From: a virus
Length of the DNA: 40,209 nucleotides
Virus record (IMG/VR): IMGVR_UViG_3300042294_003328
Span: 1 to 40,209 of that record
Direction: 5' to 3' (one strand)
Under the pieces are notes generated by a model. The model was given only the letters and a program-made list of their open reading frames with translations, did no database searches and had not been told where the DNA came from. Below, one piece after another: positions 1 to 40,108 of the stretch. How positions within the stretch are numbered: position 1 is the first letter of the stretch; each line of letters opens with the position of its first letter. Made by a program: the position numbers and the translations under genes.

Positions 1-108
1 GCATAAAAGGCGAACAAGGTTGGTGCTGGCAACCCCTGCCAGCGGGTTAGTCGATACTGTTATCGTTGCTCCTGCGGCGCTGGCTGGGTTGCCAGACCAC
101 CGACGTTC
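1..108. repeat. 108-bp inverted-repeat element, copy A (window edge)
   Basis: The first 108 bases are the exact reverse complement of 6905-7012. The element is itself an imperfect palindrome bounded by GAAC (12-15) and GTTC (105-108), with a central stem built from CTGGCAACCC and GGGTTGCCAG arms. It covers the 3' end of the exonuclease gene and supplies its last 16 residues. The window starts inside the repeat, so its outer boundary is not visible; the contig probably stopped here because the repeat could not be resolved. Confidence 0.9.
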
Positions 109-4674: not shown

Positions 4675-5126
4675 CAGCGTTCCCCCTTCCCGTTCAGGCC
4701 CATGACTCGGAGGAGTTCCTCTTCAGGGATCCTCTTCATCGGCTTGGCACCTGGGTTCAAAAAAAGAGGAAGGGCCCGCACCGTCTTGCCTGCTGGCAGA
4801 GGATCGCCCAGGGCACTCACCAAAGCCACGCGCCGGAACAGAGTGCCATAGTCCACTCCCAGCCAGCCTGCGGCCTGCTCGATGGTGTAGCTCGGCTGGA
4901 TCCGTCCCAGCGCCATCTGCCTCACCGCCGTCTCAGGGATCACCCAGCCACCCTCGGGACCGCTCACAGCGTCCGGCAGCAGGCCCAGCTCACAGCGAGC
5001 CTGCACAAACTCCGGCCGCAGATCGAACAGCGCCGCCACAGCCTCCACCGACCACAGAGCAGCCCGAGGGCGACCCACTGGGCGTGTTGGCAGTTCAGTG
5101 CGCTGAGTCATCATTGGCATCGGCAA
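4674..5126 (-). CDS. DNA-binding protein with two helix-turn-helix segments
   Basis: A 150-residue protein with two similar MerR/excisionase-like helix-turn-helix units: residues about 24-70 (SVEAVAALFDLRPEFVQ...WVIPETAVRQM) and about 79-145 (TIEQAAGWLGVDYGTLFRRV...IPEEELLRVMG). Each runs recognition helix, loop, then a short helix starting with Pro-Glu, as in phage Xis and terminase-small-like proteins. It lies in the early operon transcribed away from the repressor, so excisionase, Cro-like control or a replication accessory role are all possible. Several Met codons at the N-terminus leave the exact start uncertain; MTQRTELP (ATG at 5111) is an alternative. Confidence 0.68.
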   Translation of the reverse strand: MPMPMMTQRTELPTRPVGRPRAALWSVEAVAALFDLRPEFVQARCELGLLPDAVSGPEGGWVIPETAVRQMALGRIQPSYTIEQAAGWLGVDYGTLFRRVALVSALGDPLPAGKTVRALPLFLNPGAKPMKRIPEEELLRVMGLNGKGER

Positions 5127-5147
5127 AAAAAAGAAAAGCGCCGCAGG

Positions 5148-5291
5148 TTAGAAAGGTCCGCCTTGGCCCACATGGCCGGCCACAGCAGCCGCGAACACAC
5201 AGCCCAGGATCAACACCGCAAACGTCACGCCACGCGACCCACAGAGGCCCAGCACCGCGCTCAGCACCAGCAAACACAGAGCCGCCATCAT
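5148..5291 (-). CDS. 47-aa membrane microprotein
   Basis: Reading from the ATG at 5291 gives MMAALCLLVLSAVLGLCG, a short turn (SRG), then VTFAVLILGCVFAAAVAG and a stop at 5148-5150. These are two hydrophobic helices with little else, so a double-pass inner-membrane peptide is likely. The ATG overlaps the stop of the upstream gene by four bases (ATGA), continuing a chain of such overlaps. Roles such as superinfection exclusion or an early antiholin are possible, but nothing in the sequence decides. Confidence 0.6.
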   Translation of the reverse strand: MMAALCLLVLSAVLGLCGSRGVTFAVLILGCVFAAAVAGHVGQGGPF

Positions 5292-5497
5292 ACCAGCGCA
5301 GCCCTCCGGTTCATCCTTGCCGGATCCCCGCAGATTGAGCGGTACTTAGCCCACTCCTCCTCATCCATCCGCCAGGACTCGCCCACAGGCACAGAGCCGT
5401 CAGCAAAGGGAACATCCGCCACAGCCTCGCAGCCCATCAGCGCAAAAAGAAACGCAGCGTCCACCAGGGACCGTCCATGGGAGTCGAGGCGGATCAT
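5288..5497 (-). CDS. Hypothetical small early protein
   Basis: 69 residues: a short hydrophobic stretch (VDAAFLFALMGCEAVADV, about 12-29) then an acidic segment (RMDEEEWAKYRSICGD). Overlaps both neighbours by four bases (ATGA at each end), so it is embedded in a translationally coupled string. Family not recognised. Confidence 0.6.
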   Translation of the reverse strand: MIRLDSHGRSLVDAAFLFALMGCEAVADVPFADGSVPVGESWRMDEEEWAKYRSICGDPARMNRRAALV

Positions 5498-5709
5498 GAC
5501 GCCGTCACCTCCAAGGCTTGCAGTTCCTTCCAGTAGCCACGGGCCTCGGCACCACAGCGCCGGGCATCCCGCAGGTAAAACTCACGCACAGCCTCAGAGC
5601 TCGCGTGTTTAGCACGCACCAGCATCATTCGGGCCTCAGTGCAGGCAGCACCAAAACGTCCAGCCAGCAGCGCCATCTCACCGAGGTGCCAAAGTCGAGC
5701 GCGTTTCAT
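5494..5709 (-). CDS. Hypothetical small helical protein
   Basis: 71 residues, almost entirely predicted helical and rich in Ala, Arg and Glu (GEMALLAGRFGAACTEARMML...ARGYWKELQALE). No membrane segment. Four-base overlaps with the genes on both sides. Function unknown. Confidence 0.6.
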   Translation of the reverse strand: MKRARLWHLGEMALLAGRFGAACTEARMMLVRAKHASSEAVREFYLRDARRCGAEARGYWKELQALEVTAS

Positions 5710-5852
5710 GGCCGATACCTCCTCGAGCAGCCCACGATGCGGTGGTCAAATTTCACATTGCCGGCACTGCGGCGAGCACGCCAGGTGCGCAGCTCGAGCA
5801 CCACGGTGCCCAGGCACAGCGTCAGCGCAGCCGAGAAAAAGAGTAAGCCCAT
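5706..5852 (-). CDS. 48-aa membrane microprotein
   Basis: From the ATG at 5852 the protein begins GLLFFSAALTLCLGTVVLEL, one membrane helix, and continues with a basic cytoplasmic-type tail (RTWRARRSAGNVKFDHR). The stop overlaps the next ATG as ATGA. Small single-pass proteins of this kind are common in phage early regions; function unknown. Confidence 0.58.
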   Translation of the reverse strand: MGLLFFSAALTLCLGTVVLELRTWRARRSAGNVKFDHRIVGCSRRYRP

Positions 5853-5856
5853 AAAA

Positions 5857-6075
5857 CTACGCGGCCTCCTGGTTAGGGTTGATCATCCCGTCCGCCGCCC
5901 ATTGCTCGCGGGTATTCAGCAGCACCCTTTCGAGTTCCGCATGAGCCACTCGGGCCGCCGGATCATTTGCCCGGCGGGCAAACAGTTTTTGTTGGTCTAG
6001 CACTTCAGCGAGTGCCTGCTCCCGGGCTTTTTGCAGCTCCTCGGGCCTAAAAATGGAGTCGATTGATTGGCTCAT
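5857..6075 (-). CDS. Hypothetical small protein, first gene of early operon
   Basis: About 72 residues from the ATG at 6075 (MSQSIDSIFRPEEL). An in-frame ATG at 6099 would add eight residues but overlaps a probable operator half-site. The body is a charged helix (QKAREQALAEVLDQQKLFARR) followed by a second helix. As the first gene transcribed leftward from the divergent control region it takes the position of Cro/CII-type genes, but no helix-turn-helix is evident. Confidence 0.6.
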   Translation of the reverse strand: MSQSIDSIFRPEELQKAREQALAEVLDQQKLFARRANDPAARVAHAELERVLLNTREQWAADGMINPNQEAA

Positions 6076-6085
6076 TGGCCTACGG

Positions 6086-6156
6086 TTAGCATGGCGCATG
6101 ATTTAGCGCAATCTTAATTTGCTAAATTGCGTAAAATAATGCAGATTGCTAATATG
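6086..6156. promoter_or_regulatory. Divergent operator region for repressor and early operon
   Basis: The only AT-rich intergenic stretch in the early half. Related half-sites occur four times: TTAGCATGGCGCA at 6086 and TTAGCGCAAT at 6103 on one side, then ATTTGCTAAATTGCG at 6117 and ATTGCTAATATG at 6145 in the opposite sense. They are arranged roughly symmetrically between the leftward early genes and the rightward repressor. TAAAAT at 6132 could be a repressor -10 box. Likely bound by the adjacent Xre-type repressor. Confidence 0.55.
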
Positions 6157-6582
6157 ACCGCAACCTCCCAATCGGCAAAAGTGCTTGCCGCCGCTCTTAC
6201 AGCGCACGGCTGGACCCAGTCCGACCTCGCCAAACTCTCATCCATCGCAATCCCCACGGTTAGCCACCACCTCACCGGGCAGCGAGTCATTCGCGACGAC
6301 CATTTAGCTCTCTATGTCAAGGTGCTGGACAAAACCGAGCAAACCATGCTCGTCAGCGCCTGGCTGCGCGATTGCCTCCCCGAAAGCATCATTTTGAACG
6401 TCCTCGAGCCGCAAAAGATGAGCATACGCGACGAGGTCCGCGAATGGGCCCCAGGGCTCAGTGCCGAACAAAAAGACATGCTCACCTGGTGGGCCAAAAA
6501 GCTTGCTGCCGACGATGAACTTGCCTTAATCTTTGAAGCCATCACCGCCAAAGCAGGCTGGAAATACTCGCCAAGCTGTTAA
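6154..6582 (+). CDS. Xre/cI-family transcriptional repressor
   Basis: A helix-turn-helix protein that probably maintains lysogeny by binding the adjacent operator. Residues about 7-55 form an HTH_3-type domain (LTAHGWTQSDLAKLSSIAIPTVSHHLTGQRV), with the WTQSDLAKLS and IPTVSHHL helices typical of phage repressors. The C-terminal part (about 60-142) is helical. It lacks an Ala-Gly cleavage site or S24 peptidase motif, so induction would not follow the LexA/cI self-cleavage route. I use the ATG at 6154; ATG 6139 and TTG 6127 are in-frame alternatives that overlap operator half-sites. It is the first gene of the short rightward unit, opposite to the early operon. Confidence 0.75.
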   Translation: MTATSQSAKVLAAALTAHGWTQSDLAKLSSIAIPTVSHHLTGQRVIRDDHLALYVKVLDKTEQTMLVSAWLRDCLPESIILNVLEPQKMSIRDEVREWAPGLSAEQKDMLTWWAKKLAADDELALIFEAITAKAGWKYSPSC

Positions 6583-6629: not shown

Positions 6630-6953
6630 ATGAAAACACCAAAGATCAACTTCGAGCCGTTGCCTGCTGCCGCTGGTTCTGTGAGGGATACTCCACGCAC
6701 AGACTGGAGAGAAGCACGGTCAGAGGGACTGCACGATGAGTGGTGCTTCTCGCTATGCCGTCAGTTAGAGCGAGAACTGAATACCTGCCGAGAAGCACTT
6801 CAAGCCGCCGACGAATGCCTCTCGCTCATTGAGGACGTAGGACATGGAGCCATGTCAGACAACGTGACTGTCGCTCGCGGCATAGTCCTAGCTGCGCTTT
6901 CACAGAACGTCGGTGGTCTGGCAACCCAGCCAGCGCCGCAGGAGCAACGATAA
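6630..6953 (+). CDS. Hypothetical phage accessory protein (TPRTD/LERELN type)
   Basis: 107 residues. DTPRTDWREARSEG followed by CRQLERELNTCREALQ resembles small coiled-coil phage proteins in which a TPRTD motif precedes an amphipathic helix. No enzymatic motif. The final 16 residues are encoded by the 108-bp repeat and match the end of the exonuclease at 60-605. The gene is more AT-rich than the structural genes and sits between repressor and integrase, a usual location for lysogenic-conversion cargo. Confidence 0.6.
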   Translation: MKTPKINFEPLPAAAGSVRDTPRTDWREARSEGLHDEWCFSLCRQLERELNTCREALQAADECLSLIEDVGHGAMSDNVTVARGIVLAALSQNVGGLATQPAPQEQR

Positions 6954-7012
6954 CAGTATCGACTAACCCGCTGGCAGGGGTTGCCAGCACCAACCTTGTT
7001 CGCCTTTTATGC
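6905..7012. repeat. 108-bp inverted-repeat element, copy B
   Basis: Exact inverted copy of bases 1-108. It covers the end of the 6630-6953 gene and finishes at the start codon of the next gene (ATG 7009). Internal structure includes GCTGGCA/TGCCAGC arms around a five-base loop, CTGGC/GCCAG arms around six bases, CGATA/TATCG around four bases, and a larger pairing of the two outer halves through CTGGCAACCC. The GAAC...GTTC bounded part is 97 bp, within the size range of integron attC sites, but the terminal boxes do not match the GTTRRRY consensus. Confidence 0.85.
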
Positions 7013-7275
7013 AACTACCGACACCACCTCAAATCAGTCAAAACAATGAAAATCTCACTGCGGACATTGCCGCTGTCGAGCAATGGGCGCTGCGCAACGA
7101 TCCCATGTGGGCTAACTGGCAACACTTCGGGGAGCATTCCGAAATGGATCAGCGCGACATCTACCGCATCATTGCAGCCCGCCAACTCGCGGAACGATAC
7201 CGCCTCCAGAACGAGCTAATCCGACTGGTGGAACTATCGCCAAACCCGCCGCGTCTCTTTGAGGCGAACACTTAG
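7009..7275 (+). CDS. Hypothetical accessory protein
   Basis: 88 residues, hydrophilic, with helical segments (ADIAAVEQWALRNDPMWANWQHFGE and DIYRIIAARQLAERYRLQNELIRLVE). No recognised domain. The start codon lies at the very edge of the 108-bp element, so the leader comes from the repeat. It is followed at once by a hairpin terminator and faces the convergent integrase gene. Confidence 0.6.
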   Translation: MQLPTPPQISQNNENLTADIAAVEQWALRNDPMWANWQHFGEHSEMDQRDIYRIIAARQLAERYRLQNELIRLVELSPNPPRLFEANT

Positions 7276-7349: not shown

Positions 7350-8708
7350 TCACCGCGCCCGGTGCAGCATCTCGTCCGTCATCGTGCGTAAAAGCTCCGG
7401 CTTCTGCTCAATGTAATGCAGCAGGCTCGTCGCCTCCTTTGAGTGGCGCAGATACTTCATCACCGCATGAGCCGCCCGCTCATAGCTCCCATGGTCCGCC
7501 AGCTCCGCCACATACAGCGCCGTCGCACAGTAGCCGCGCAGCCGATGATTCCCCTTCCGGCTCCTCACCTCGCCGATGAACCCCTTGATCCATTCATTGT
7601 GACGGTCCCTCACCAACTCACGCCGCTCCTTCCGCTCCTCCCCTAAAGCATCCGCTCCTGGCACCCTCGGCAAAATCAAAAACGGATTCTCCACTCCCGC
7701 CTTCCGCGCCGCAGCACACCGCGACCGCAACCGCGCAGCCAGTCCCGCATTCAAAGGCAACAGCGCCTCATTCTTGCTCTTGCAGCTAAAGTTCTCCTCC
7801 AGCCGATTCCGCACCCACAAAAACACCTGGCCGCCGTCCTCGTGCAACCAACTCTCCCGCGCCATCACCAGTTCCCCCGACCTCAGAGCCAGCAGCCGCA
7901 GCAACTCATTGCACAGCGCCAGCTCCTCATCCTCCAGCACCTCCCACGCCAGCATCATCTGCCGAAACTGTTTCGGCGTCGGCAGATCCTCACCGACCAC
8001 ACGCGAAGGATTCGGCAACCGGAACCCCCGAAAGCCCTCCACCTTCCGCCAGTCCACCTTCAGCGACTCCACCGCCAGCATCCGGCTCCGTTCACTCAGC
8101 ACCACCCCAGCATTCCCCAGCGTCGAGTTAATCGTCCCATTCACCAACGGCGGCAGCGCCTTGTCCAGATTGATCACCTCACCGCCTTGCAACCGCCGGG
8201 CATACTCCATCGCAGAACCCGTGCTGAACACCTCATAAAAATCCAACGCATCCACCTGCTTCAGCAACCGTCCCCCATCCGTATCCATCCGCACCTTTGC
8301 CAGCGGCTCAATGATCCCATGGGCCACCGCCGCCACCAGTCTCACCGAAGAGATCGCACGTCGAAACTCCTTCAGCCTCCGCGCCTCCGCCACCTTCTCA
8401 AACGCCTCCAAAAACGTCCCCAGCGTCAGACCCACCTTCCGCGCCCGAGTCCCCTCCACCGCCGCCCGCAGCGTCTCCCACTTATCCGACTCCCGAGCCG
8501 CCACCAGCAGTCGCGCCCGGCTAATCGCCTCCGCCTGGTTCGACGTGTCCAGGCACTGCATAAACTGACTGCCCTGCGCCCGCTGATACTTCGCATAAAA
8601 GCTATCATAATATTCCGGCACCCCCGCATCCGCCCACGATTTCGCTGGCCTCCGCACCTTCCCCACCCACAAGCCCTTCGGCAGTTTAGTCTTCGTCTTC
8701 GTTTTCAT
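7350..8708 (-). CDS. int: Tyrosine recombinase, phage integrase
   Basis: Catalyses site-specific recombination between attP (just downstream in this window, 8790-8937) and the host tRNA-Val gene. The C-terminal catalytic domain shows box I Arg in LALRSGELV, a Lys in the beta-hairpin (CKSKNEALLPL), HRLR (His388, Arg391), a second His422 in YLRHSKEAT, and the nucleophile Tyr432 in HYIEQ ten residues later. The first 150 residues form the arm-binding and core-binding N-terminal part. At 452 aa it is longer than lambda Int. The promoter side faces attP, as in most temperate phages, and TATAAAA just before the ATG may be its -10 region or part of an integrase-regulated promoter. No IntI-specific insertion is recognisable. 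Confidence 0.88.
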   Translation of the reverse strand: MKTKTKTKLPKGLWVGKVRRPAKSWADAGVPEYYDSFYAKYQRAQGSQFMQCLDTSNQAEAISRARLLVAARESDKWETLRAAVEGTRARKVGLTLGTFLEAFEKVAEARRLKEFRRAISSVRLVAAVAHGIIEPLAKVRMDTDGGRLLKQVDALDFYEVFSTGSAMEYARRLQGGEVINLDKALPPLVNGTINSTLGNAGVVLSERSRMLAVESLKVDWRKVEGFRGFRLPNPSRVVGEDLPTPKQFRQMMLAWEVLEDEELALCNELLRLLALRSGELVMARESWLHEDGGQVFLWVRNRLEENFSCKSKNEALLPLNAGLAARLRSRCAAARKAGVENPFLILPRVPGADALGEERKERRELVRDRHNEWIKGFIGEVRSRKGNHRLRGYCATALYVAELADHGSYERAAHAVMKYLRHSKEATSLLHYIEQKPELLRTMTDEMLHRAR

Positions 8709-8860: not shown

Positions 8861-8937
8861 CCACTTCATCGAAGTGGTGCGCGGTACAGGGTTCGAACCT
8901 GTGACCCCTACCATGTCAAGGTAATGCTCTACGCCTC
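8861..8937 (-). other. attP: attP core: 3' part of tRNA-Val(GAC)
   Basis: Read on the minus strand, 8934 down to 8875 gives the 3' half of a D-arm, an anticodon stem-loop with loop TTGACAT (anticodon GAC, valine), the variable loop, a perfect T-arm around GTTCGAA, the acceptor 3' strand ACCGCGC and an encoded ACCA end. The matching 5' acceptor strand (GCGCGGT) is absent upstream, so this is a fragment that would restore the host tRNA gene after integration. A 7-bp-arm hairpin (CCACTTC/GAAGTGG, 8861-8877) abuts the CCA end. Confidence 0.8.
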
Positions 8938-9009
8938 AGAGGGCTTTTGTAAGGGGTTGGGGTTGAGGGGGGACATTGGAAATCAGGGCCGTTTATACGG
9001 GTTATTGGA

Positions 9010-29978: not shown

Positions 29979-32273
29979 TTAAGCGGCGGCTGCGGGTGGG
30001 GCCAATTGCGGTTGGTTCATTTGCGCGAGGCTGACGCCGTCGGGTAGCTGCTGGAGACGCTCGAGCAGCATCTCGGCCTGGCTGGGCTGGGCGAGCGGGT
30101 CTTCGGTGAGCGTGCGTCCGATCCGTGCGTTCTCGCCTCCGTGTTGCTTCTGGTTGTTGACCAGGCCACCGAGGTAACTGATGAGCACGACGTGGACTTG
30201 ACCGCCGCCGATGATGGCTTGCTGACGCAAGGGGCTGCGTTGGATTTCCTCGGTGACGGCAGTGGCGAGACCGCCGAAGTCCATGCCATCGACCACGTCG
30301 GGTGCGCCACCGGAGAAGATTTCCGAAAGGTGTGCGCGGGCGGTGTCGAGCGTTTTGCGCTGGGCACTTTCGAGGCTCTGCGGCAAGCTGCGGGCGGCGA
30401 GGTTGGGGTCAAAGAAATTGAACGCGGACTCCAACATCGGCAAATAATTGATGTGTCCACCGGGGTCCAGCGGACGGAGCATGTCCATGAGCTTGATGTG
30501 CTCGGCCGCCCATTCGACATCGAGGGACTTGACGCTGAACTTGACTTGGAAGTCATAGCTGCCGCGCACTTCTTCGGCGGTGGCGGAAACGTATTCCTCG
30601 GTGCCGGTGATGCGAACGCCTTGCAGGGGCGGCATGTATTGCTGAATGAGTCGAGCGGTGCGGGCCACGGCCTGCGACACGGCGAGCATGAACCAGTCCA
30701 TGTCGGCCTGCCCCATCATCATGGCCATGCTCTCGGGCACGGTCTTGGAGGTGAAGCCGAAGAAGAGATCGACTGAGGAACGAAGGTTGTCCTCGATGGC
30801 AATGCTGCGGCTGTCGGGCGGTGGGATTTGGAGGGCGGTGGGAATCTTGCCACGGATGCTGGGCAGGAACACACCGGGCGCGGGGCGCAGACCTTCGAGC
30901 TCGGGATCTCCGGTCCATGTCGGGAAGGTCGTGAGACTTGCGGCATCGGTGCGGCTGTCCCACTGGGCCTTGATGGCTTGCTCCTTGGTCATCGTGACCT
31001 CGGGCACGCTGAGTCCTTCGAGTAGCAAGCGCTCGTCACAGGAGAAGGCGAAGGGGATGAACGGGTAGCAGCCGTCCCAGTCGTCGCGCAATTCACGCTT
31101 GGCTACCTTGTCCAGAATGTCGGGGTGCAGGACGGTGTGGTAGGTGCCGGTGAGTCCGTCCTCGGTGACGGCCTTGTCCCAAAATTCGACGATCTGGTAG
31201 AGGTGATTTTGCGCTTCGCCGTTGGGCTTGGCGGACCAGTTGACCCCGGCGGCATTGAGTGCCCAGGGGTAGGTGGCCATGGCGTTGGAAAACATCTTGC
31301 TCTTGCCCTTGTGATTCTTGATGACCTCCTCGACCCAGGCTTTGTCCCAGCCGTGGATCTGGCCTTGCTCACGCAACCACTGAGCACTGCGCCAGCGCAC
31401 CCGGGCGATCCAGCGACTGCTTTCCAATCCGTCCTCCATGATGGTTTCGGCAGGGCAGAAGACATCGACAAACAGTTGCAGGGCTTCCCAGCACGGGGAG
31501 CTGCGCTTGACGTAGCTGGCGTGAATGAAGGCGCGGTCTTCGCCTCGGCGGAGTTGAGCCAAGGCTTTCTTGGCCGAGGCCAGACCGATCTTCCCACGCG
31601 AGGCCACGCCTTGCAGGCTGCGGCGAATGAGGGCGAGGGTGGTTTCCTCGGCAGCGGGATCGAGCGCGAGTGCAGCGTAGTCGGTGCCTTCATCGATCAG
31701 CATGCCTTGGGATGCGGCGGCGAGCTCCATTTTGAACATCTCGCCCACCATGTCGTAGGTGAGCGCGATGGCTTCGACCCCGCGCTCCTCTTTCCATCCG
31801 ACATAGAGCAGGCTGGCGCGGAAGCGGTCGGCGTAACTGCCGGCCTTCAAGCCCTGCGTCATGAACTCGGTGCGCATGGGGCCGTTGAGGTAGTAGCGCA
31901 GCACCTGGCGCATGAGTCCGGCTTGTTTGCCATCCGTGCTTTCCATGGGCGTGACGGCCAAGGCTCCGCCTGCGAGGGCTGCGGTGCGGGCGGCATTCCG
32001 CCGATTCATCACGGTCTGCGTGAGGTGGACTTCGTGGTCCGCTGCGCCGTTGAAGGGTTTGGCATCGGCTTGCTTGGTCTTTTCCTTCTTGCCTGTGCCG
32101 GTCTTCGTGGGCCACCAGCACTTGCGCGTCTTTTCGTTGTTGGAGGCTTGCTTCAGAAAGCTGCTCGCGTCCCGGCAGGCGGCCTCCATCTCATCGATGG
32201 CGTCTTTGGCGCTCCATCCGACCAAGGGCTTGGCCGGGTCAATGACGGCAGGGAGTTCAGCAGGGGCAGACAT
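29979..32273 (-). CDS. Portal protein (large, podovirus-like)
   Basis: 764 residues, the size of P22-type portals. It starts with an acidic helical part, has a basic loop (TKTGTGKKEKTKQADAKPFNGAADHEVHLTQTVMNRR, about 54-90), then long helices and strands, a central wing/stem region (VTEDGLTGTYHTVLHPDILDKVAKREL, about 385-415) and a C-terminal helical barrel with a Gln-rich end (QPSQAEMLLERLQQLPDG). It lies downstream of terminase and upstream of scaffold and capsid, the conserved order of head genes. The protein would form the 12-fold DNA channel at the head vertex. Confidence 0.75.
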   Translation of the reverse strand: MSAPAELPAVIDPAKPLVGWSAKDAIDEMEAACRDASSFLKQASNNEKTRKCWWPTKTGTGKKEKTKQADAKPFNGAADHEVHLTQTVMNRRNAARTAALAGGALAVTPMESTDGKQAGLMRQVLRYYLNGPMRTEFMTQGLKAGSYADRFRASLLYVGWKEERGVEAIALTYDMVGEMFKMELAAASQGMLIDEGTDYAALALDPAAEETTLALIRRSLQGVASRGKIGLASAKKALAQLRRGEDRAFIHASYVKRSSPCWEALQLFVDVFCPAETIMEDGLESSRWIARVRWRSAQWLREQGQIHGWDKAWVEEVIKNHKGKSKMFSNAMATYPWALNAAGVNWSAKPNGEAQNHLYQIVEFWDKAVTEDGLTGTYHTVLHPDILDKVAKRELRDDWDGCYPFIPFAFSCDERLLLEGLSVPEVTMTKEQAIKAQWDSRTDAASLTTFPTWTGDPELEGLRPAPGVFLPSIRGKIPTALQIPPPDSRSIAIEDNLRSSVDLFFGFTSKTVPESMAMMMGQADMDWFMLAVSQAVARTARLIQQYMPPLQGVRITGTEEYVSATAEEVRGSYDFQVKFSVKSLDVEWAAEHIKLMDMLRPLDPGGHINYLPMLESAFNFFDPNLAARSLPQSLESAQRKTLDTARAHLSEIFSGGAPDVVDGMDFGGLATAVTEEIQRSPLRQQAIIGGGQVHVVLISYLGGLVNNQKQHGGENARIGRTLTEDPLAQPSQAEMLLERLQQLPDGVSLAQMNQPQLAPPAAAA

Positions 32274-32522: not shown

Positions 32523-32551
32523 GGGGAGTTGTTGTTGTTGGTTCTCAGTTT
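32523..32551 (-). repeat. Heptamer leader
   Basis: Intergenic bases with GTTCTCA (plus strand 32541-32547), a degenerate second copy GTTTTCA and a GTT run, directly before the ATG at 32522. Confidence 0.5.
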
Positions 32552-33184
32552 TCAATACGCCCACTGGGCATCGCCGAGGATCTCGGTGCTGTCGGCCCAC
32601 CACTCGTCCCATTGGGCGTTGGTGGCGACTTGCCAATCGGGAATGGTGGCGGCGGCGTTGGGGCCGGTGAGGGAGAGGGGGAGCCACTTGAGGCGGTTGT
32701 TGGGGTAGATGGCGATTTGGCCGTTGGATAGCTTGATGACGTTGGCTTCTTTGTGCTCCTCGAGCAGCTCGGAGTCGCCGACATCGAGCAGGCCCTGCGC
32801 TTGGCCTTCCGGCAGGTAGTCGAGGGTAAACCAGTAGTGCCCACCGATGGGCTTGTTTCCTTTGCCCAGATTGACGAGCACGGGCACGTCGGTGAGTTGG
32901 TCTTTACGCCAGAGCTCAATGCTGCCACTGAGGCACTCCCACATTTGCACCTGGTGCAACGGCAGAGGCTGGTGGTCGTCCTCGGGCTCAAACCAGTAGA
33001 CGCACTGGGGTGGGATCTTGTCAAAACAAGCGGCAAAGCGCTCGACCCAGACTTGGAAGCAGAGCGGACGATTCCGCAGGGCGCGAACGGACACAAGCCA
33101 CGCGGGTTCAAAGTGATCAGCGAATCCGCCAAAGGCATCGCCGCGGATGAAGACTTTGGTTTTCGGGAGGTTGATGTTTCTCAT
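32552..33184 (-). CDS. Hypothetical phage protein
   Basis: 210 residues, soluble, mixed alpha/beta, rich in Trp (QVWVERF, YWFEPEDDHQPLP, WECLSGSIELWRKD, HYWFTLDYLPEG, QWDEWWADS). No catalytic signature or cysteine cluster. GC-rich like the core genes. Its leader is a double heptamer fused to the 31-bp shared element. Function unknown. Confidence 0.62.
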   Translation of the reverse strand: MRNINLPKTKVFIRGDAFGGFADHFEPAWLVSVRALRNRPLCFQVWVERFAACFDKIPPQCVYWFEPEDDHQPLPLHQVQMWECLSGSIELWRKDQLTDVPVLVNLGKGNKPIGGHYWFTLDYLPEGQAQGLLDVGDSELLEEHKEANVIKLSNGQIAIYPNNRLKWLPLSLTGPNAAATIPDWQVATNAQWDEWWADSTEILGDAQWAY

Positions 33185-33228
33185 GGTTTTGTTCTCAGTT
33201 CTCGGTTTTGCGGCTAATCGTTGTTCTG
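33185..33228 (-). repeat. Heptamer leader with 31-bp shared 3' element (copy 1)
   Basis: Plus strand: heptamers GTTCTCA and GTTCTCG (33191-33204), then a GGCTAATCGTTGTTCTG block ending at 33228, just after the stop of the AT-rich gene to the right. The 31 bases 33198-33228 match 34209-34239 and 37126-37156 with few differences. Confidence 0.75.
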
Positions 33229-33564
33229 CTAAGAAAGCATGTCGGCAGTGATCCCGAGTGCTTTCATTTCGGTGGTCATGCGTTTGATGACCTCTTTTCT
33301 TTTCCAGCCTGCTCGCGCTTCGATTGCATAGTCCACGAGAGCCTTTCCCATGTCGTCCCAGTAGTCGGGAAGTTCGGTGTAGCTCTCAAAGTCCCGCGTC
33401 TCAAAACCAATTAATTCGCGAGCATCATAGAATAACTCATCAACTTGCTTTAACAGCGCGTTCATTTTCTTGCCAATGGCTTCTAATTTCTTGCGGTCAC
33501 TACTGGGCACAAGGGCAACCCCATGCAAAGCAGCTAACTCGGTGGTCTGAGATGTTGTATTCAT
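33229..33564 (-). CDS. Hypothetical accessory protein (AT-rich gene)
   Basis: 111 residues, helical and charged (SSDRKKLEAIGKKMNALLKQVDELFYDARELIGFETRDFESYTELPDYWDDMGKALVDYAIEARAGWKRKEVIKRM). No known motif. The gene is clearly more AT-rich than the neighbours and is bracketed by GAACCGA leaders, with the 31-bp shared element directly after the stop. Likely a recently acquired accessory gene. Confidence 0.62.
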   Translation of the reverse strand: MNTTSQTTELAALHGVALVPSSDRKKLEAIGKKMNALLKQVDELFYDARELIGFETRDFESYTELPDYWDDMGKALVDYAIEARAGWKRKEVIKRMTTEMKALGITADMLS

Positions 33565-33587
33565 GTTTTTTTGTTCTCGGTTCTCGG
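33565..33587 (-). repeat. Heptamer leader
   Basis: Two consecutive GTTCTCG heptamers (plus strand, 33573-33586) between the glycosyltransferase stop and the ATG at 33564, followed by a T-run. Confidence 0.65.
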
Positions 33588-34193
33588 TTACTGCATGACG
33601 GGAAATTTACACTGACCGACGTGACCGACGAAGACGCGCTTGTCGATGAGGACGCGGCCTCCGAGCGCACGCCAGGCGGCGCAGAAGGCGAAGTCCTCGC
33701 TGGTGCCATCGACGGAGGTGGGCCAGTAGCTGTGCATGGGGCCAAACTCGGTGTGCTCCATGAGCGGGGCCTGCGGTTTCATTTTCTCAAACACGCTGCG
33801 ATGCACGCGCATGAATCCTCGGGCGGTCTTCTCGACTTCCCAAAGCAGACCGGGCTGCTCGTCGGGATTCTCGTTGCCCTCGATGGGGACGATGGGCGGG
33901 TCAAAGCGCACGGTGCGCTTGGAGTAAAGCCCGAAGACGAGCGGCTCGTCATGCTCGCGCAGGTGGGCGAGGTCGGTGGGCTTGAACACGAGGTCGGTGT
34001 CGATGACGATCATCTCGTCGCACTCGCTTTGGAGGAAGCGGTGGGTGGCGATGTCCATGGCGTAGCCGGGGTAAGGCGTGGAGATGTGGCAGAAGATACT
34101 AGCGCCCTGCACGGCTCCGAGCATGGACACAGCCCAGCCGGTGACGGATAGGCCCATGCCGTTATCGATGATGGGGAAGAAGGTGGGTTTCAT
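33588..34193 (-). CDS. Glycosyltransferase, GT-A fold
   Basis: 201 residues. DEMIVIDTDLVF (59-70) holds the metal-binding DxD (Asp65, Asp67). GFMRVHRSVFEKM (126-138) resembles the acceptor-site loop, TSEDFAFCAAWRALGGRVLIDKRVFVGHVG (164-193) has the catalytic Glu-Asp and a late metal-binding His191. Such compact GT-A enzymes in phage genomes transfer a sugar from a nucleotide donor to phage DNA bases, virion proteins or host surface glycans. Which applies is not shown. It has a typical GC-rich composition, unlike the AT-rich genes on both sides. Confidence 0.72.
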   Translation of the reverse strand: MKPTFFPIIDNGMGLSVTGWAVSMLGAVQGASIFCHISTPYPGYAMDIATHRFLQSECDEMIVIDTDLVFKPTDLAHLREHDEPLVFGLYSKRTVRFDPPIVPIEGNENPDEQPGLLWEVEKTARGFMRVHRSVFEKMKPQAPLMEHTEFGPMHSYWPTSVDGTSEDFAFCAAWRALGGRVLIDKRVFVGHVGQCKFPVMQ

Positions 34194-34239
34194 TGGGTTT
34201 GTTTTGGGGTTCTCGGTTCTGTAGCTAATCGTTGTTCTG
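34194..34239 (-). repeat. Heptamer leader with 31-bp shared 3' element (copy 2)
   Basis: Bases 34209-34239 (GTTCTCG, then GTAGCTAATCGTTGTTCTG) match copies at 33198 and 37126. Here the stop codon of the adjacent AT-rich gene lies inside the element, and the last four residues (QNND) are encoded by it. Confidence 0.75.
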
Positions 34240-34617
34240 CTTTACCCTCATGTGCTTAGGCAGTTTTTGCCCGCAACACTTGCAGCGAGGAACTGGGTCA
34301 ACCGGAATGTTGAGAATCTGACACAGCAGGGCACGGCTCTTAGCTCCAATATTTCTGGCGTTCATCCTGCCGGATAGGCACCTCAATACGAGTCCTTCCA
34401 TATCCAGATTTACATGCTGTGCGTTTTCTTCATAGAACCACCGCCCTCGCATGTTTGGCGGTTCTTTAACCAAGCCCATATTGGAAATGCTATTTCCAAG
34501 CCTAGCGCCGATTGGCCCTGCTTGTCGAATAGCTGTGGCCAAGTCAACAGCAGAACAAGCGGATGCAGGGTCAACAGCCTCGCGGCTTGGTTTTTGAGTG
34601 TCGGTTTCTTCGGCCAT
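34225..34617 (-). CDS. Hypothetical accessory protein with C-terminal Cys cluster (AT-rich gene)
   Basis: 130 residues. Middle part ATAIRQAGPIGARLGNSISNMGLVKEPPNMRGRWFYEEN and LSGRMNARNIGAKSRALLCQILNIP; end VPRCKCCGQKLPKHMRVKQ with Cys-Lys-Cys-Cys suited to a small zinc knuckle. The final QNND comes from the shared 31-bp element. More AT-rich than its surroundings. No family recognised. Confidence 0.6.
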   Translation of the reverse strand: MAEETDTQKPSREAVDPASACSAVDLATAIRQAGPIGARLGNSISNMGLVKEPPNMRGRWFYEENAQHVNLDMEGLVLRCLSGRMNARNIGAKSRALLCQILNIPVDPVPRCKCCGQKLPKHMRVKQNND

Positions 34618-34683
34618 ATTTTTAGGTGTTTGAGGGTTGATTGTGGTCTTTCGGCTGTGCCTGATCCTTGACGTTCGGTTGGG

Positions 34684-35097
34684 TTAAATGCGAATGCGGC
34701 GGGGTTTGGGGCCGTCGAACTCAAAGATGCCGGGGTGCTCGGTGGGGAGGACTTCGAGCGGATCGTTGCGGCGGAACTGCGAGGCGAAGACACGCGGGGC
34801 GGTGAGGCGCACGGTGGCCATGCCGCCGTCCGGCAGCTTGACGCGCAGCATCCGCGGCAACGCGCCCGCCGCCTGCACGACGACGGGGAGGCGGGCGATC
34901 TCAGCGGGGGGCGACTCAATGCCGGCCAATCGCAGCACCTCCGCCTCGCCCTCGGGGGTGAGGACGTAGGCGCGGTTTTCGTCTTGCTGGTAGTGCTGCT
35001 CCTTGACGATCAAGCCAGCGCTCCGCCACTTGGCAAAGCTGCTGCGAGGGATGCCCAGTCGGGCGGCGAGGACGGATTCGGGAGTGAGGGTGTGCAT
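34684..35097 (-). CDS. DNA-binding protein with helix-turn-helix, next to terminase
   Basis: 137 residues from ATG 35097. Residues 5-35 (PESVLAARLGIPRSSFAKWRSAGLIV) form a MerR/Xis-like helix-turn-helix, followed by a wing (YQQDENRAYVLTPEGEAEVLRLAG). The C-terminal half is beta-rich (ALPRMLRVKLPDGGMATVRLTAPRVFA) and ends in basic residues. It could be a packaging-site recognition protein, although the better small terminase candidate lies at 38262-38891. The frame upstream of 35097 is a shadow of terL. Confidence 0.62.
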   Translation of the reverse strand: MHTLTPESVLAARLGIPRSSFAKWRSAGLIVKEQHYQQDENRAYVLTPEGEAEVLRLAGIESPPAEIARLPVVVQAAGALPRMLRVKLPDGGMATVRLTAPRVFASQFRRNDPLEVLPTEHPGIFEFDGPKPRRIRI

Positions 35098-35138
35098 GGG
35101 AGGTAAGGGTGTTCTCGGTTCTCTGTTCTTTGTTCTCA
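35098..35138 (-). repeat. Four-unit heptamer leader
   Basis: Clean array on the plus strand: GTTCTCG, GTTCTCT, GTTCTTT, GTTCTCA from 35111 to 35138, all in a seven-base register. The last unit overlaps the terL stop codon. Best example of the heptamer family here. Confidence 0.75.
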
Positions 35139-37118
35139 GTAGCCAAATTCCAAATTGGGGCGGTTGCGGAAGCGTGTTAAATCGATGTGCTTGGGCTCCC
35201 AGGACTCGAGGTATTTCATGAGGTCGAACCACTCGACACAGGCTTCGTCTTTCTTTTGGGGGCCTTCCTTCCAAGGGGGGAGGGTGAAGCTGGCAAACAT
35301 GAATCGCGTGTTTTCACACTCGCGATTGATCCTGACTAACGGGCTGCCTTCGACATCGCGGGCGAGGGAGTCGAGGATGAACTTGATGCCGTCGTCATCG
35401 CTGGGGGCGGAGACCATGACCTCTCCGCTGTCGGTCTTCCATGGCTGGAGGTAGATGCCGTTTTCGGCGTCGGCGTATTTGCGACCGAGGCTGGCACCCT
35501 CGACCGTTTCCTCGACGCCACGCGGATCGGGAATGGTGAAGTAGGGCAGAGCAAAGGGGCCTTCCAGCTCGGTGGAGGCATCTCGCAGCGGGTGCTTCCA
35601 GGTGAGCTTGTCCGTCCGCACTTCTCCGGTGTAGGGTTCTCCGGTCTCGGCGAGCTTTTGCACAAGTCGGGCACGCATGGCCCAGATCTCGCGCACGATG
35701 CGGGCGCTGTCCCACTTCAGGCGCAGGCGGTAGGCGGGGCCTTCGTCTCCGTTGTAGCGTCCGGTCTCGCTCGGCACGGCCCAGGCACCGGGCAGGAGCA
35801 CGCGGCCGGCCATGGGGATGCCGATCTGCGGCGACGGCCACTCCTGCGCGAGCCAGCGGCGTCCGAGGTAATCGACAATCCACCACTGCAAAGCAGGGGG
35901 CTTGGCTTTGCCGAAGTCGATGACCTCGTAGAGCGTGATGTTCTTGCGGGGGATGTCGGCCCAGTCGCAGAGGTTCTCGGGACCGAAGGAGGAGAAGACG
36001 ACGGCCTCGCCTTTGTCCACGTCGCCGTAGAGTTTGATCCGCACTTCATGCTCGGGGGCGTTTCGCAGGCTGGCGCTGAGCTCCTCGTAGGCGGGCTTGA
36101 TTTTGTTGTCGGAGGTGAACACATAGGCCACGAGGCCAGTCTCATGCGGGGGCTGGGCAAAGCGCGGGACTCGCGGATCCAAGACGCCGTGTTTTCCGAC
36201 GAGGTCGGGGGCGGTCTCCCAGGCGTATTTGGTGGCTCCATTGAGGAAGTAGTTCACGGTGTCGTTCCACCCGAGGTAAGGCGTGAAGCTGATCAGATGG
36301 ACGCCGTGATACAGGGCACCGAGCAGGGCGATGGGGAGTTTTCCTCCGCTTTCCAGTAGCTTCACCGCTTGCTCGATGCGGTAGAGAAACTCTGGCCTCT
36401 TGGTCTGCTGGGCGCGGGTGGCCATACGCTCTCTGACGGCCTTGACATGGCCGAGGGGGACGAGCTCATCACTCCACGCGCTGGACAGTTCGTAACCTTG
36501 GAAGGTGCCGATGTCCTGGCCGAAGAAACGGAAGACGAAGTCACCGCCGCCGAGGTAGGTGCGCTCCGTTTCATCGCTGACGGGGACGCGGAGGGAAAAC
36601 ATCTCATTGGTGAAGTGACCGCCGCTAAACTTGAAGCGCTCGTGCTTGGTGGACTTGTGCTTGCCACTGATCGGCGAGACCTCCTCGGGCAGAAACATTT
36701 CAACGGGCTGCTGCTGGAGCTTGCCGGAGGTGTCGCGTGTCTCGGACAAGGCGAACACAGTAGCCTTTTCGGTGTAAACCCAGTGCGCGGTCATGCGCCG
36801 GGCGCAGGAGAACGACTTGCCAGGGCGCATGCCACCCGTGATGAAGACCTCGATCACGCGACCGGGATGGGCGAGACGTTTGCGAGCTACTTCCAGATCG
36901 ATCTGCCGCCAGATCGCAGGCTCCCAGCAATGGGTGAGCGGGTAAGCGGTCATGTGCAAGATGGCGTCTTCGCGGCGACCCAACTCCACCGCCGCCTGAT
37001 CGCGACCGAGGGCCATCAGCTCGTCGAGCGTGAACTTCTCGACGACGGGGCTCTCAGTCTGCTGGTCATGCCAGCCGGCCATCGCGATGCGTTCGGGGTT
37101 GAGGGGGTCGGGGGTCAT
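35136..37118 (-). CDS. terL: Terminase large subunit
   Basis: 660 residues from ATG 37118 (MTPDPLNPERIAMAGWHDQQ); the open frame continues 31 codons further upstream, but that is leader repeat. ATPase domain: Walker A GGMRPGKS (about 95-102), then an adenine-binding stretch, and Walker B with SAWSDEL giving Asp217-Glu218. The nuclease domain begins near TLYEVIDFGKAK, Asp401 being the likely first RNase-H-type metal ligand. It pumps DNA into the procapsid and cuts it. ATPase motor and nuclease are on one chain as in other tailed phages. The first 10 codons are duplicated at 38236-38265. Confidence 0.86.
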   Translation of the reverse strand: MTPDPLNPERIAMAGWHDQQTESPVVEKFTLDELMALGRDQAAVELGRREDAILHMTAYPLTHCWEPAIWRQIDLEVARKRLAHPGRVIEVFITGGMRPGKSFSCARRMTAHWVYTEKATVFALSETRDTSGKLQQQPVEMFLPEEVSPISGKHKSTKHERFKFSGGHFTNEMFSLRVPVSDETERTYLGGGDFVFRFFGQDIGTFQGYELSSAWSDELVPLGHVKAVRERMATRAQQTKRPEFLYRIEQAVKLLESGGKLPIALLGALYHGVHLISFTPYLGWNDTVNYFLNGATKYAWETAPDLVGKHGVLDPRVPRFAQPPHETGLVAYVFTSDNKIKPAYEELSASLRNAPEHEVRIKLYGDVDKGEAVVFSSFGPENLCDWADIPRKNITLYEVIDFGKAKPPALQWWIVDYLGRRWLAQEWPSPQIGIPMAGRVLLPGAWAVPSETGRYNGDEGPAYRLRLKWDSARIVREIWAMRARLVQKLAETGEPYTGEVRTDKLTWKHPLRDASTELEGPFALPYFTIPDPRGVEETVEGASLGRKYADAENGIYLQPWKTDSGEVMVSAPSDDDGIKFILDSLARDVEGSPLVRINRECENTRFMFASFTLPPWKEGPQKKDEACVEWFDLMKYLESWEPKHIDLTRFRNRPNLEFGY

Positions 37119-37156
37119 TCTGTTTGTTCTCGGTTCTGTGGCTAATGTTTGTTCTG
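37119..37156 (-). repeat. Heptamer leader with 31-bp shared 3' element (copy 3)
   Basis: Bases 37126-37156 (GTTCTCG...GGCTAATGTTTGTTCTG) match 33198 and 34209. The element begins three bases after the stop of the PAPS-reductase-like gene and ends in the terL leader. Confidence 0.75.
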
Positions 37157-37158
37157 GC

Positions 37159-38211
37159 TCATATGCCGCACATCCCCTCGCATTCGTTGTTAAAGAGATC
37201 CTGCTGTCCATGATCTTCGTCCGTGCTGAAATCGACTTGATCTAAAGGGACCAGTGAGGCGTGAAGGTATGGGATGCCCTTGAACTTGCCGGGTGTCGTC
37301 ACAGATTGGTGGACGGCCTGCATTGCCTTCTCGACACGAACAGCTTCCGCGAAAGCATCAGGCTCAATATCTCTTAGCCTCCGCCACTCATTGTCAGAAT
37401 GAAATGGACAGTAGCAGCACGCTGACCGTGGCGGAGTGGGAAACCCATGAGACTTCATCCACTGAAGACAGTCATGGCGTTTCATTCTCTTATCCACTAA
37501 CGGCCATTGGTGCCTAGACCACACGTCTCGCGACGGTTTCATTCGCTGCACTTCATCAAGTGATATTCCAATCCATTGAACGACCATTGCGTTTGCATGG
37601 CAATGCTTCCATGCGTCCGCTGGGTAGCAGGTTTTGGCGTTCTGGAGTTTCTTCTTTTCATGCTCTCGTATTTCATTGAGTGCTGACGCATGGACTTTCC
37701 TCCATTCACGAAGCTCCTGCCTTCCAATGATCTCCCTCAACTTCTTCACGATTGGGTCGATCTTGAAGTTCAGAGTGCAAGAGCGCCCCGCTATTCCTTT
37801 GGTCCCGTTCTGATTTAATACCATCGCAGGGATCATGTTGGAATAGTAGATATTGCCATTTTTCTGGTTCGTGCGTGTCGTGGTCACTCTTTCCGTCAGA
37901 CTGCCAGCCGTGACGCGATAGACCGGAAACGGTAGCTGTGTTTCCAGCCAGTCCAGCCACTTGTAAACACTGGCAGGCTCCGCCTGCGTGTCCGCGAAGA
38001 TGGCAGCGGTAGGCATCGGGGTGAGTTCCCCACACGCAGCCATGAGCGCCATCGTGGACGATTGCACGCCAGCGCCAAGCGAGATGATATGCACCGGCTT
38101 AACCAAGCGAGAACAATCAGATGCACCCGACAAAATGGGGCGATCTGTCGAACTGCCATGTTTTACGGCTTCGGAGGAGGTTTCTAGTAGTGCGGTGTTC
38201 ATTGTGGTCAT
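37159..38211 (-). CDS. PAPS reductase-like / adenine nucleotide alpha hydrolase (AT-rich cargo gene)
   Basis: 350 residues of the ATP-pyrophosphatase (PP-loop) superfamily. HIISLGAGVQSSTMALMAACG (41-61) is the modified P-loop; ADTQAEPASVYKWLDWLE follows as in phage PAPS-reductase-like proteins. RSCTLNFK (Cys145), SACCYCPFHSDNEW (Cys265, 266, 268) and a C-terminal ECEGMCG (Cys344, 348) could hold an Fe-S cluster or zinc. Members adenylate or thiolate substrates such as sulfate, tRNA or modified nucleobases; the substrate here is unknown. It separates terS from terL, is more AT-rich than either, and is followed by the 31-bp shared element, so it looks like an inserted accessory gene. Confidence 0.75.
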   Translation of the reverse strand: MTTMNTALLETSSEAVKHGSSTDRPILSGASDCSRLVKPVHIISLGAGVQSSTMALMAACGELTPMPTAAIFADTQAEPASVYKWLDWLETQLPFPVYRVTAGSLTERVTTTRTNQKNGNIYYSNMIPAMVLNQNGTKGIAGRSCTLNFKIDPIVKKLREIIGRQELREWRKVHASALNEIREHEKKKLQNAKTCYPADAWKHCHANAMVVQWIGISLDEVQRMKPSRDVWSRHQWPLVDKRMKRHDCLQWMKSHGFPTPPRSACCYCPFHSDNEWRRLRDIEPDAFAEAVRVEKAMQAVHQSVTTPGKFKGIPYLHASLVPLDQVDFSTDEDHGQQDLFNNECEGMCGI

Positions 38212-38214
38212 GCC

Positions 38215-38265
38215 CTATTTCGCGGGTGATCTGAAGCGTTTGGGGTTGAGGGGGTCGGGGGTCAT
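38215..38265 (-). pseudogene. Duplicated terL start fragment
   Basis: Reads MTPDPLNPKRFRSPAK then stop. The first 30 bases (38236-38265) match the terL start (37089-37118) with one difference. Its ATG overlaps the terS stop (ATGA), so this is probably where terL originally began before the accessory gene was inserted. It is too short to be functional. Confidence 0.75.
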
Positions 38266-38891
38266 GCTTCCGCTTTCACGGGGGTGAGGGGAGTGAGGAC
38301 GGTTTCCAACACGGCTTCGGGGAGCGGGGGTGGGGTTTTGAGGGTCTCGACCTCGATGACTTTGCCCTGGGCCGCGGCTTTGACTTTCTCGAAGTCATCG
38401 ACGCTGAAGCGATGATGCACGGCTTTGATTTCGGTGGGGCCACCGGATTGAATCTGCTTGATGTTGTGCGCGGCGGTCATGACCATGGCCACGGCTCCGA
38501 GGTCTTTGGTGCTCTTGGCCTTCTCGATCAAGTCCCGCGAGGCTCCGATGCTTTCCATGGTGAGCAAGGCACTGCTGCGGGCGATGATTTGATTGATCTC
38601 GCCGGGCTTGAAGACGGTGGTGTCGTTGATGAGCGCGATGATGGAGTTCCGCGACACGCCCCCGAGCCCGCGCTCCTTCCGGTGGGCGTCCACCTGGCGC
38701 TCCAACTCGCTGCGATTGGTGATGCCCAGCTCGCGGATGAGGTAGATGCAGTAGTCGTAACTCAAGGGGTCTCCGCGCACCGGATCCCGCCACCGCTCGG
38801 CGGTGTGCTCGCGGTATTCCTCGCCGGGTGGCGGCGGCAGGGCCTCACCATTGGCGAGCGTGAGGGGAAGCGGGGGTTGGGTGGGGTTCAT
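38262..38891 (-). CDS. terS: Terminase small subunit candidate
   Basis: 209 residues. After a Pro-rich start, YCIYLIRELGITNRSELERQVDAHRKERGLGGVSRNSIIALIND (about 48-90) resembles a helix-turn-helix DNA-binding domain. A helical oligomerisation region follows (INQIIARSSALLTMESIGASRDLIEKAKSTKDLGAVAMVMTAAHNIKQIQSGGPTEIK), the kind seen in small terminases, with a Pro-rich end. It precedes (the duplicated start of) terL with an ATGA overlap, the expected terS-terL coupling. It would recognise the packaging site. Confidence 0.65.
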   Translation of the reverse strand: MNPTQPPLPLTLANGEALPPPPGEEYREHTAERWRDPVRGDPLSYDYCIYLIRELGITNRSELERQVDAHRKERGLGGVSRNSIIALINDTTVFKPGEINQIIARSSALLTMESIGASRDLIEKAKSTKDLGAVAMVMTAAHNIKQIQSGGPTEIKAVHHRFSVDDFEKVKAAAQGKVIEVETLKTPPPLPEAVLETVLTPLTPVKAEA

Positions 38892-38915
38892 TGCGGTTCT
38901 CGGTTGTTGGTTTGT
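38892..38915 (-). repeat. Heptamer leader
   Basis: GTTCTCG followed by GTTGTTGG (plus strand, 38896 onward) just before the terS ATG at 38891. Confidence 0.55.
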
Positions 38916-39659: not shown

Positions 39660-39893
39660 CTAGCACGTCACGTATGGGACGGTGAATGTTGTCCGCTGTC
39701 CGCATGATGGGCAGACGTATTCGTATTCGCCAGGGTCGAGGACGATGTGCGATGGCGGATTGTGTTCAGGACTCAGGCACGGCGGCTTTGTATCGCGTAT
39801 CTTTCGCAACCCTCCCGTGCCGCCCAACAAGCGAGTGGAGCTAACAGCCCCCGCGCTTTCAGTTTGTTCGATGTTGTTTTGCATATTGGTCAC
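39660..39893 (-). CDS. Small zinc-ribbon protein (cassette-like gene)
   Basis: 77 residues from GTG 39893, which overlaps the previous stop (GTGA); ATG 39884 is an alternative. The conserved part is KPPCLSPEHNPPSHIVLDPGEYEYVCPSCGQRTTFTVP: Cys and His in the first half, then Cys-Pro-Ser-Cys, a small zinc ribbon of a type common in phages. The N-terminal 30 residues are encoded by one arm and the loop of the attC-like palindrome, so they probably are not part of the original fold. A GCCCAAC box (39649-39655, minus strand) follows five bases after the stop. Confidence 0.6.
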   Translation of the reverse strand: MTNMQNNIEQTESAGAVSSTRLLGGTGGLRKIRDTKPPCLSPEHNPPSHIVLDPGEYEYVCPSCGQRTTFTVPYVTC

Positions 39894-39938
39894 TTTTGGT
39901 TGTTCGGCGGGGGCTGTAGCTCACCCGCAGCGTTCGGC
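39822..39938. other. attC-like recombination site
   Basis: 117 bp bounded by GCCCAAC (39822-39828, fits RYYYAAC) and GTTCGGC (39932-39938, one change from its complement). The inner arms GTGGAGCTAACAGCCCCCGC (39835-39854) and GCGGGGGCTGTAGCTCACC (39907-39925) pair almost fully, leaving one extrahelical A. Size, boxes and single unpaired base all fit integron attC sites. It joins two minus-strand small genes. Confidence 0.6.
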
Positions 39939-40108
39939 TTCAGTCGGGCGAGTGCTCCGAGAGCATGATTGATGTGGGATTTAGCCTTGTGAATCTCCAT
40001 GAATACTCTGTGTCTTTCCGGCCCCCGCGCTTCATCGGCGGTTGTTTTTGCTAGCTCCATTAGCTGTGATACCAGTGATTGGAGCCGTTCGTAATCGGTT
40101 GCTGTCAT
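39890..40108 (-). CDS. Hypothetical protein (cassette-like gene)
   Basis: 72 residues, helical (TATDYERLQSLVSQLMELAKTTADEARGPERHRVFMEIHKAKSHINHALGALARL), like small Lys/Glu coiled-coil proteins. The last ten residues (ELQPPPNNQK) come from the attC-like arm. Stop overlaps the next GTG (GTGA). Function unknown. Confidence 0.55.
   Translation of the reverse strand: MTATDYERLQSLVSQLMELAKTTADEARGPERHRVFMEIHKAKSHINHALGALARLKPNAAGELQPPPNNQK

Follow-up and report, generated by a model that had tools for sequence, protein, structure and literature searches.

Integrons are gene-capture systems which are best known for antibiotic-resistance genes in bacteria. In the class 1 integron (IntI1/attI1; PMC8876359) a single attI, which includes a small translated ORF, lies beside the Pc promoter, the genes read away from attI, the start codons are situated in the cassette body and the cassette ends are paired. 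Bacteriophages with integrons and CALINs are already known (Qi et al. 2023, PMC9892861). The text on phage integrons there covers IntI, attC sites and cassettes in phages with methyltransferases as prominent cargo, presents arrays in which the cassettes point in one direction, as is typical of bacteria, and describes them without an intI in the head operon, without attI copies at multiple junctions and without ORFs starting inside attC. In the reverse integron of Treponema denticola (PMC3607928, PMC4909258) intI and the cassette genes are transcribed the same way, intI toward attI and the genes away from it. Delta-attI-type cassettes (PMC12901181), which are resistance cassettes of mobile integrons, are bounded by an attI-derived site that recombines there with IntI1.

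The phage loci analyzed here, namely a window of 40,209 nucleotides (the whole stretch of viral DNA studied; features in Table 1) and its relatives, share with one or another of these systems the paired cassette ends, a translated attI, cassette genes in the same direction as intI and a boundary formed by an attI-like site. They differ in that attI lies 5′ of intI, the cassette genes read toward attI and the start codons are located inside the upstream attC. ORFs facing attI with their starts inside attC, as well as attI copies dispersed in the head operon, are apparently new, and an open-access literature search found no paper with the present arrangement. Judging from sequence comparisons, the lineage of this phage very probably carries an integron of its own, with the genes at 34225 and 37159, and possibly the one at 33229, being cassettes in junctions of the late operon.

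Table 1. Features of the window that bear on the putative phage integron, by position.
Feature	Position	Strand	Remark
attC copy matching 6906-7000	13..107	-	after exonuclease gene, left contig end
Cassette body	6676..6908	+	GTT-CTGTGA .. TCACAG-AAC
attC hairpin between two cassettes	6906..7000	+	fold z -5.1
Cassette body	6998..7269	+	GTT-CGCCT .. AGGCG-AAC
Portal-like core gene	29979..32273	-	74% to L210, ~73% to L248/L249
attI-like element 1	33204..33227	-	AAC at 33223-33225
AT-rich gene followed by element 1	33229..33564	-	unproven as cassette
Core gene P201 between two cassette slots	33588..34193	-	73-82% to relatives
attI-like element 2	34215..34238	-	AAC at 34234-34236; codes N-N-D-stop
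Probable cassette gene of unknown function	34225..34617	-	homologue at other junction in L249
Degenerate attC, 5′ end of cassette 34225	34554..34675	-	arm score 9.0
Heptamer leader	35111..35136	-	core-core junction, no cargo
Large terminase-like core gene	35136..37118	-	41% to L210; intI upstream of it in relatives
36-nt direct repeat, downstream copy	37086..37121	-	5′ end of terminase gene
attI-like element 3	37132..37155	-	crossover triplet AAC at 37151-37153; then leader and terminase start
Probable PAPS-reductase-like cassette gene (phrog_424)	37159..38211	-	E=3.2e-41
attC-like hairpin, 5′ end of PAPS cassette	38112..38240	-	start codon inside
36-nt direct repeat, upstream copy	38233..38268	-	joined to attC around AAC triplet
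Two small cassette genes	39660..40108	-	39890-40108 and 39660-39893
attC between two cassette genes	39826..39934	-	near right contig end; fold z -3.1

A preliminary description of this DNA had reported that three AT-rich accessory genes each carry a nearly identical element at the 3′ end, and this observation was confirmed. The 24-mer AGAACAANNATTAGCYRCARAACC (minus strand) matches exactly at all three elements, with 0 copies expected by chance (100 dinucleotide shuffles, up to 3 mismatches allowed). Two elements directly follow the stop codon of their gene (TAG for 33229-33564, TGA for 37159-38211) and the third lies across it, as gene 34225-34617 terminates inside element 2 with VKQNND-stop. 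The three genes are indeed AT-rich, with GC contents of 48.2, 50.9 and 52.3% (window 60.6%, neighbouring genes 60-63%), and lie 8-12 points below their neighbours. Each element is a composite of a gene-side half, AACAANNATTAGC, which resembles an integron attI site, and a heptamer leader half, which reads GTTCTCG.. on the plus and AGAACCG.. on the minus strand. As had been noted, the element runs into the leader of the next core gene; the heptamer half is also present without cargo at the core-core junctions 32534-32552, 35111-35136 and 38895-38913, and the cargo-linked part of the element is only the GCTAATNNTTGTT half. Tandem AGAACCR heptamers are intergenic leaders in this phage group (for example at 35111-35136 and in the arrays of the contigs L018 and L126); as each of them contains an AAC, they could be secondary integrase sites or ribosome-loading leaders.

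Integron integrases (TIGR02249) are encoded in at least 25 phage loci of IMG/VR. The ORF at 5200-6189 of locus L141 reaches 347 bits against a cut-off of 265, the catalytic residues of the phage integrases are invariant and the phage IntI is about 44% identical to the class 1 IntI (phage P1 copy). In almost all loci an attI motif, AACA..ATTATCC, is found 35-65 bp upstream of the intI start (27 matches in the loci, 1.0 in shuffled sequences), so that intI is not transcribed toward attI as it is in the Treponema type. At these sites the sequence switches sharply at the AAC, being variable before and conserved after it, and arrays of attC-bearing cassettes precede attI-intI. Chaining back from attI yielded 30 cassettes, several of them recurring in overlapping loci, and most have an ORF whose start lies within the upstream attC and whose end is close to the next AAC. 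Sense-strand cassette ORFs match four DNA methyltransferases, an RNA ligase, a PAPS reductase, a HAD domain and an acyl carrier protein, which confirms that the cassette genes read toward attI. As regards genes reading away from attI, these loci gave the contrary result, the cassette ORFs facing attI. The attI is translated in one and the same frame in several loci (N-S-D-Y-P or N-K-N-Y-P-D-stop), and the QNND-stop of the window and the QNKD-stop of another phage, G001, represent the same attI frame with TAG replacing TAT; the predicted protein tags are MKTRKTTSAPKVGSS.., ..NDQTLPTEGAAKKP and ..NKNYPD.

The two attI copies of locus L208 (positions 6950 and 11590) have 50 of 51 bases in common. 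The first precedes intI, the second follows two cassettes in the interval from terminase to portal, and each terminates a cassette run. The elements of the window lie in the same part of the genome. The proposed polarity, with ORFs pointing toward attI, depends on the placement of attI and of the hairpins. It would be the ordinary one if the motif beside intI were merely the leader of intI, with the true attI at the 5′ end of the array and the genes in their usual orientation. As the hairpins are nearly symmetric they do not by themselves prove the crossover end, and a conserved extra base fits both readings in identity and side. Yet the variable sequence stops exactly at the AAC by the motif, where no hairpin is present, each gene has its hairpin distally, at the 5′ end, and the second motif copy in L208 likewise closes a cassette run, which makes an ordinary polarity improbable.

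The window contig, G001 and L126 do not contain an intI. The window elements resemble attI over their first ~15 nt only. With a matrix built from intI-adjacent attI sites they rank 2, 3 and 5 among 968 AAC positions, with scores that are not above the best ones from shuffled windows; the same matrix places the site of G001 first of 754 and that of L126 first of 302. The 15-nt attI pattern (up to 2 mismatches) has four matches in the window (0.71 expected), the elements being three of these. Each window element is a putative attI, which may be a working one. In L126, an 86-aa ORF (6659-6917) follows the attI-like site, at the place that intI takes in other phages. An integrase with 41% identity, annotated as xerD, is encoded at 4680-5678 of Virus Rctr41k (L242, KX853513) among small same-strand genes, and this run may be another phage integron. 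A long-branch IntI within the phage group (G145:C60) was set aside, as its 3.7-kb contig gives no context.

By pattern scan the element was also detected in G001, where it stands between a small gene with the end RQNKD-stop and a heptamer leader. On both sides the flanks in L126 match those of G001 at 92-94%, and the slot comprises 1378 bp in L126 compared with 333 bp in G001. The L126 slot consists of several small ORFs, two joints between which are formed by an 88-nt repeat. This repeat, which separates unrelated ORFs in a further 14 viral contigs, is an imperfect hairpin from AAC to GTT of the attC type, and attC hairpins gave 136 matches in the loci compared with 5 in shuffles (both strands counted). 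The bases after the GTT at one end of a cassette complement those before the AAC at the other end; such complementary cassette ends are a signature of integron cassettes. In a hand-picked set that included the window, 65 of 72 bases were paired (permuted mean 36.9). In an independent set of 27 cassettes, with attC taken from the hairpin alone and attI from the position of intI, 111 of 162 bases were paired, whereas 100,000 permutations averaged 70.5 and reached at most 97. Only 14 of these 27 paired ends attain 5/6, a shortfall due in part to attC sites that the scan overlooks.

Of the search of relatives and hosts that the preliminary description had proposed, the part with a strict 30-mer of the element had no match in GTDB genomes. 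GTDB genomes likewise contained no full copy of the 88-nt repeat, and the 45 short matches to the attC core CTGCCGACCGAAGNGGCGGC in them could not be extended to a full attC. Most of the first 20 viral matches to the element were coincidences in coding sequences, with only L018/G001 being real, and most heptamer matches in other viral contigs fell within unrelated coding repeats. Terminase peptide patterns did not find close viral relatives.

In the window, complementary cassette ends are present for genes 34225 and 37159 and for the array at 6676-7269. The ends of the PAPS cassette (GTT-CTCGCT at 38114, AGCCAG-AAC at 37153) are complementary at 5/6, and its attC-like hairpin has a hairpin score of 15, a fold z of -1.8 and an arm score of 16. 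The two copies of a 36-nt repeat that flank this cassette are 92% identical. Since the copy of the terminase 5′ end that stands before the cassette changes to attC within 2 bases of the AAC, it is suggested that cassette, element and terminase start entered as one. The ends of cassette 34225 (GTT-CTGCT at 34556, AGCAG-AAC at 34236) also pair at 5/6; the arm score of its degenerate attC is attained by 2.6% of random pairs and the fold of this attC is not significant. For gene 33229 neither an attC nor a matching left cassette end was found. The view that all three genes are cassettes is supported for 34225 and 37159 and unproven for 33229, which has the tag and no demonstrable 5′ end. The attC hairpins at the 5′ ends of the genes and the 36-nt repeat had escaped the preliminary description. 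The cassette next to the attC at 39826-39934 is bounded by GTT-GGGCGGC .. GCCGCCC-AAC, and both ends of the window contig are attC sites. The left end (1-107) duplicates an internal attC and cassette start (6906-7012), so that the assembly probably broke there.

Comparison with relatives bears on mobility. In L210 (portal 74%, P201 73% identical), the closest integrase-bearing relative, the order is array-attI-intI-terminase, with attI-intI directly upstream of the terminase gene and exactly at the site of one window element; at this site the window contains the PAPS cassette with its element and lacks an intI. The P196-P201 junction is occupied by gene 34225 in the window and by a different gene in L248, and holds no gene in L210, L245, L249 and L254. 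A homologue of gene 34225 with 86% protein identity is found in L249 between P201 and portal, so that the accessory genes are not universal and co-inherited. The DNA similarity of the two 34225 cassettes (91%) is limited to the stretch from the attC start to AGCAG/AACAA. In the sister L248 (97% identical in the flanks) the P201-portal site is empty and carries TGCCTAAC, and in L249 TGCCTA stands at both edges of the ~520 bp insert; GCCTAAC is the usual form of the integron core site. The empty P196-P201 junctions of the four relatives lack the element, which is thus not a fixed resident attI; it appears either to have arrived with the cargo or to have been lost there. The empty sites at the compared junctions keep a leader and no tag, and the tag does not stand between these core genes without cargo, so that neither of the results named beforehand as refuting was obtained. 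A gene similar to phrog_3704 has also moved: in the window (32552-33184, minus strand) it sits between element 1 and portal, and in L248 (1572-2201, 74% identity) upstream of the terminase gene.

The tag precedes core start codons and holds in-frame stops, and its heptamer half recurs as leader, as would be expected of a transcription or translation signal (a terminator or ribosome-loading leader) at the ends of accessory genes without any role in insertion. This reading is very unlikely given that the tag is missing at the cargo-less junctions of relatives and that its gene-side half matches the attI beside intI. A further explanation regards the genes as morons, which homologous recombination between short leaders in common (heptamers and tag) would have spread, with the integron sites as incidental relics. 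Heptamer leaders are indeed present at many junctions, elements 1 and 2 have AGCAG-AACAACGATTAGC in common, as if one had been copied from the other, and the third gene has the 36-nt repeat, which may be interpreted as the footprint of a recombination. However, the similarity of the 34225 copies is bounded by the start of attC and by the AAC triplet and does not end in the leaders, the pairing of cassette ends exceeds every permutation, and intI, attI and arrays occur in the same lineage. We therefore doubt that such recombination brought in the genes, although it could later have moved cassettes and copied elements.

The suggestion of a cassette-type acquisition thus gained support, with integron cassettes as the probable route (attI-like tag, attC, paired ends and IntI in relatives). 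According to the integron model, a cassette ORF would start inside the 5′ attC hairpin and run to the conserved AAC triplet, where the cassette would meet the 31-bp element; the first ~15 nt of the latter would be attI-like and able to provide the final codons together with the stop, and the remainder would serve as leader of the next phage gene. The phage IntI, encoded next to the first attI upstream of the terminase gene in relatives, would recombine the attC of a circular cassette with attI copies or other AAC-containing sites, and phage late transcription would then read the cassettes. IntI is accordingly only the presumed agent of insertion, and the route by which the extra attI copies originated is one that we infer. 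It appears somewhat more probable than the contrary that this is a distributed integron, in which one integrase would serve several attI copies between structural genes, the coding strand of the cassettes and the attI order would be reversed compared with bacterial integrons, and the translated sites would give unrelated cargo proteins the same N- and C-terminal tags.

If this is true, integrons would be a resident gene-capture device of phages and not occasional passengers, the inverted polarity would let the phage operon express cassettes that have no promoter of their own, and insertion at multiple points of the late operon would become possible through several attI copies. The cargo (DNA methyltransferases, RNA ligase and PAPS-reductase-like proteins) would be plausible tools against host defences, and the system offers a direct test of how integron polarity is set. 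With regard to the host, IntI was found in 100 of 388 Verrucomicrobiota genomes, with the best about 51% identical to the phage IntI, which is a hint to Verrucomicrobiota and not a proof. The strands of ORFs upstream of chromosomal Verrucomicrobiota intI genes were not decisive owing to short flanks and overlapping ORFs. A tRNA search of the window found no tRNA. A 452-aa ORF of the window (7350-8708, minus strand) exhibits tyrosine-recombinase-like motifs by eye and has no PHROG or NCBIfam match. As a tRNA-Val-like stretch near 8880-8940 adjoins it, the two are possibly a prophage integrase and attP, in which case the phage may be temperate.
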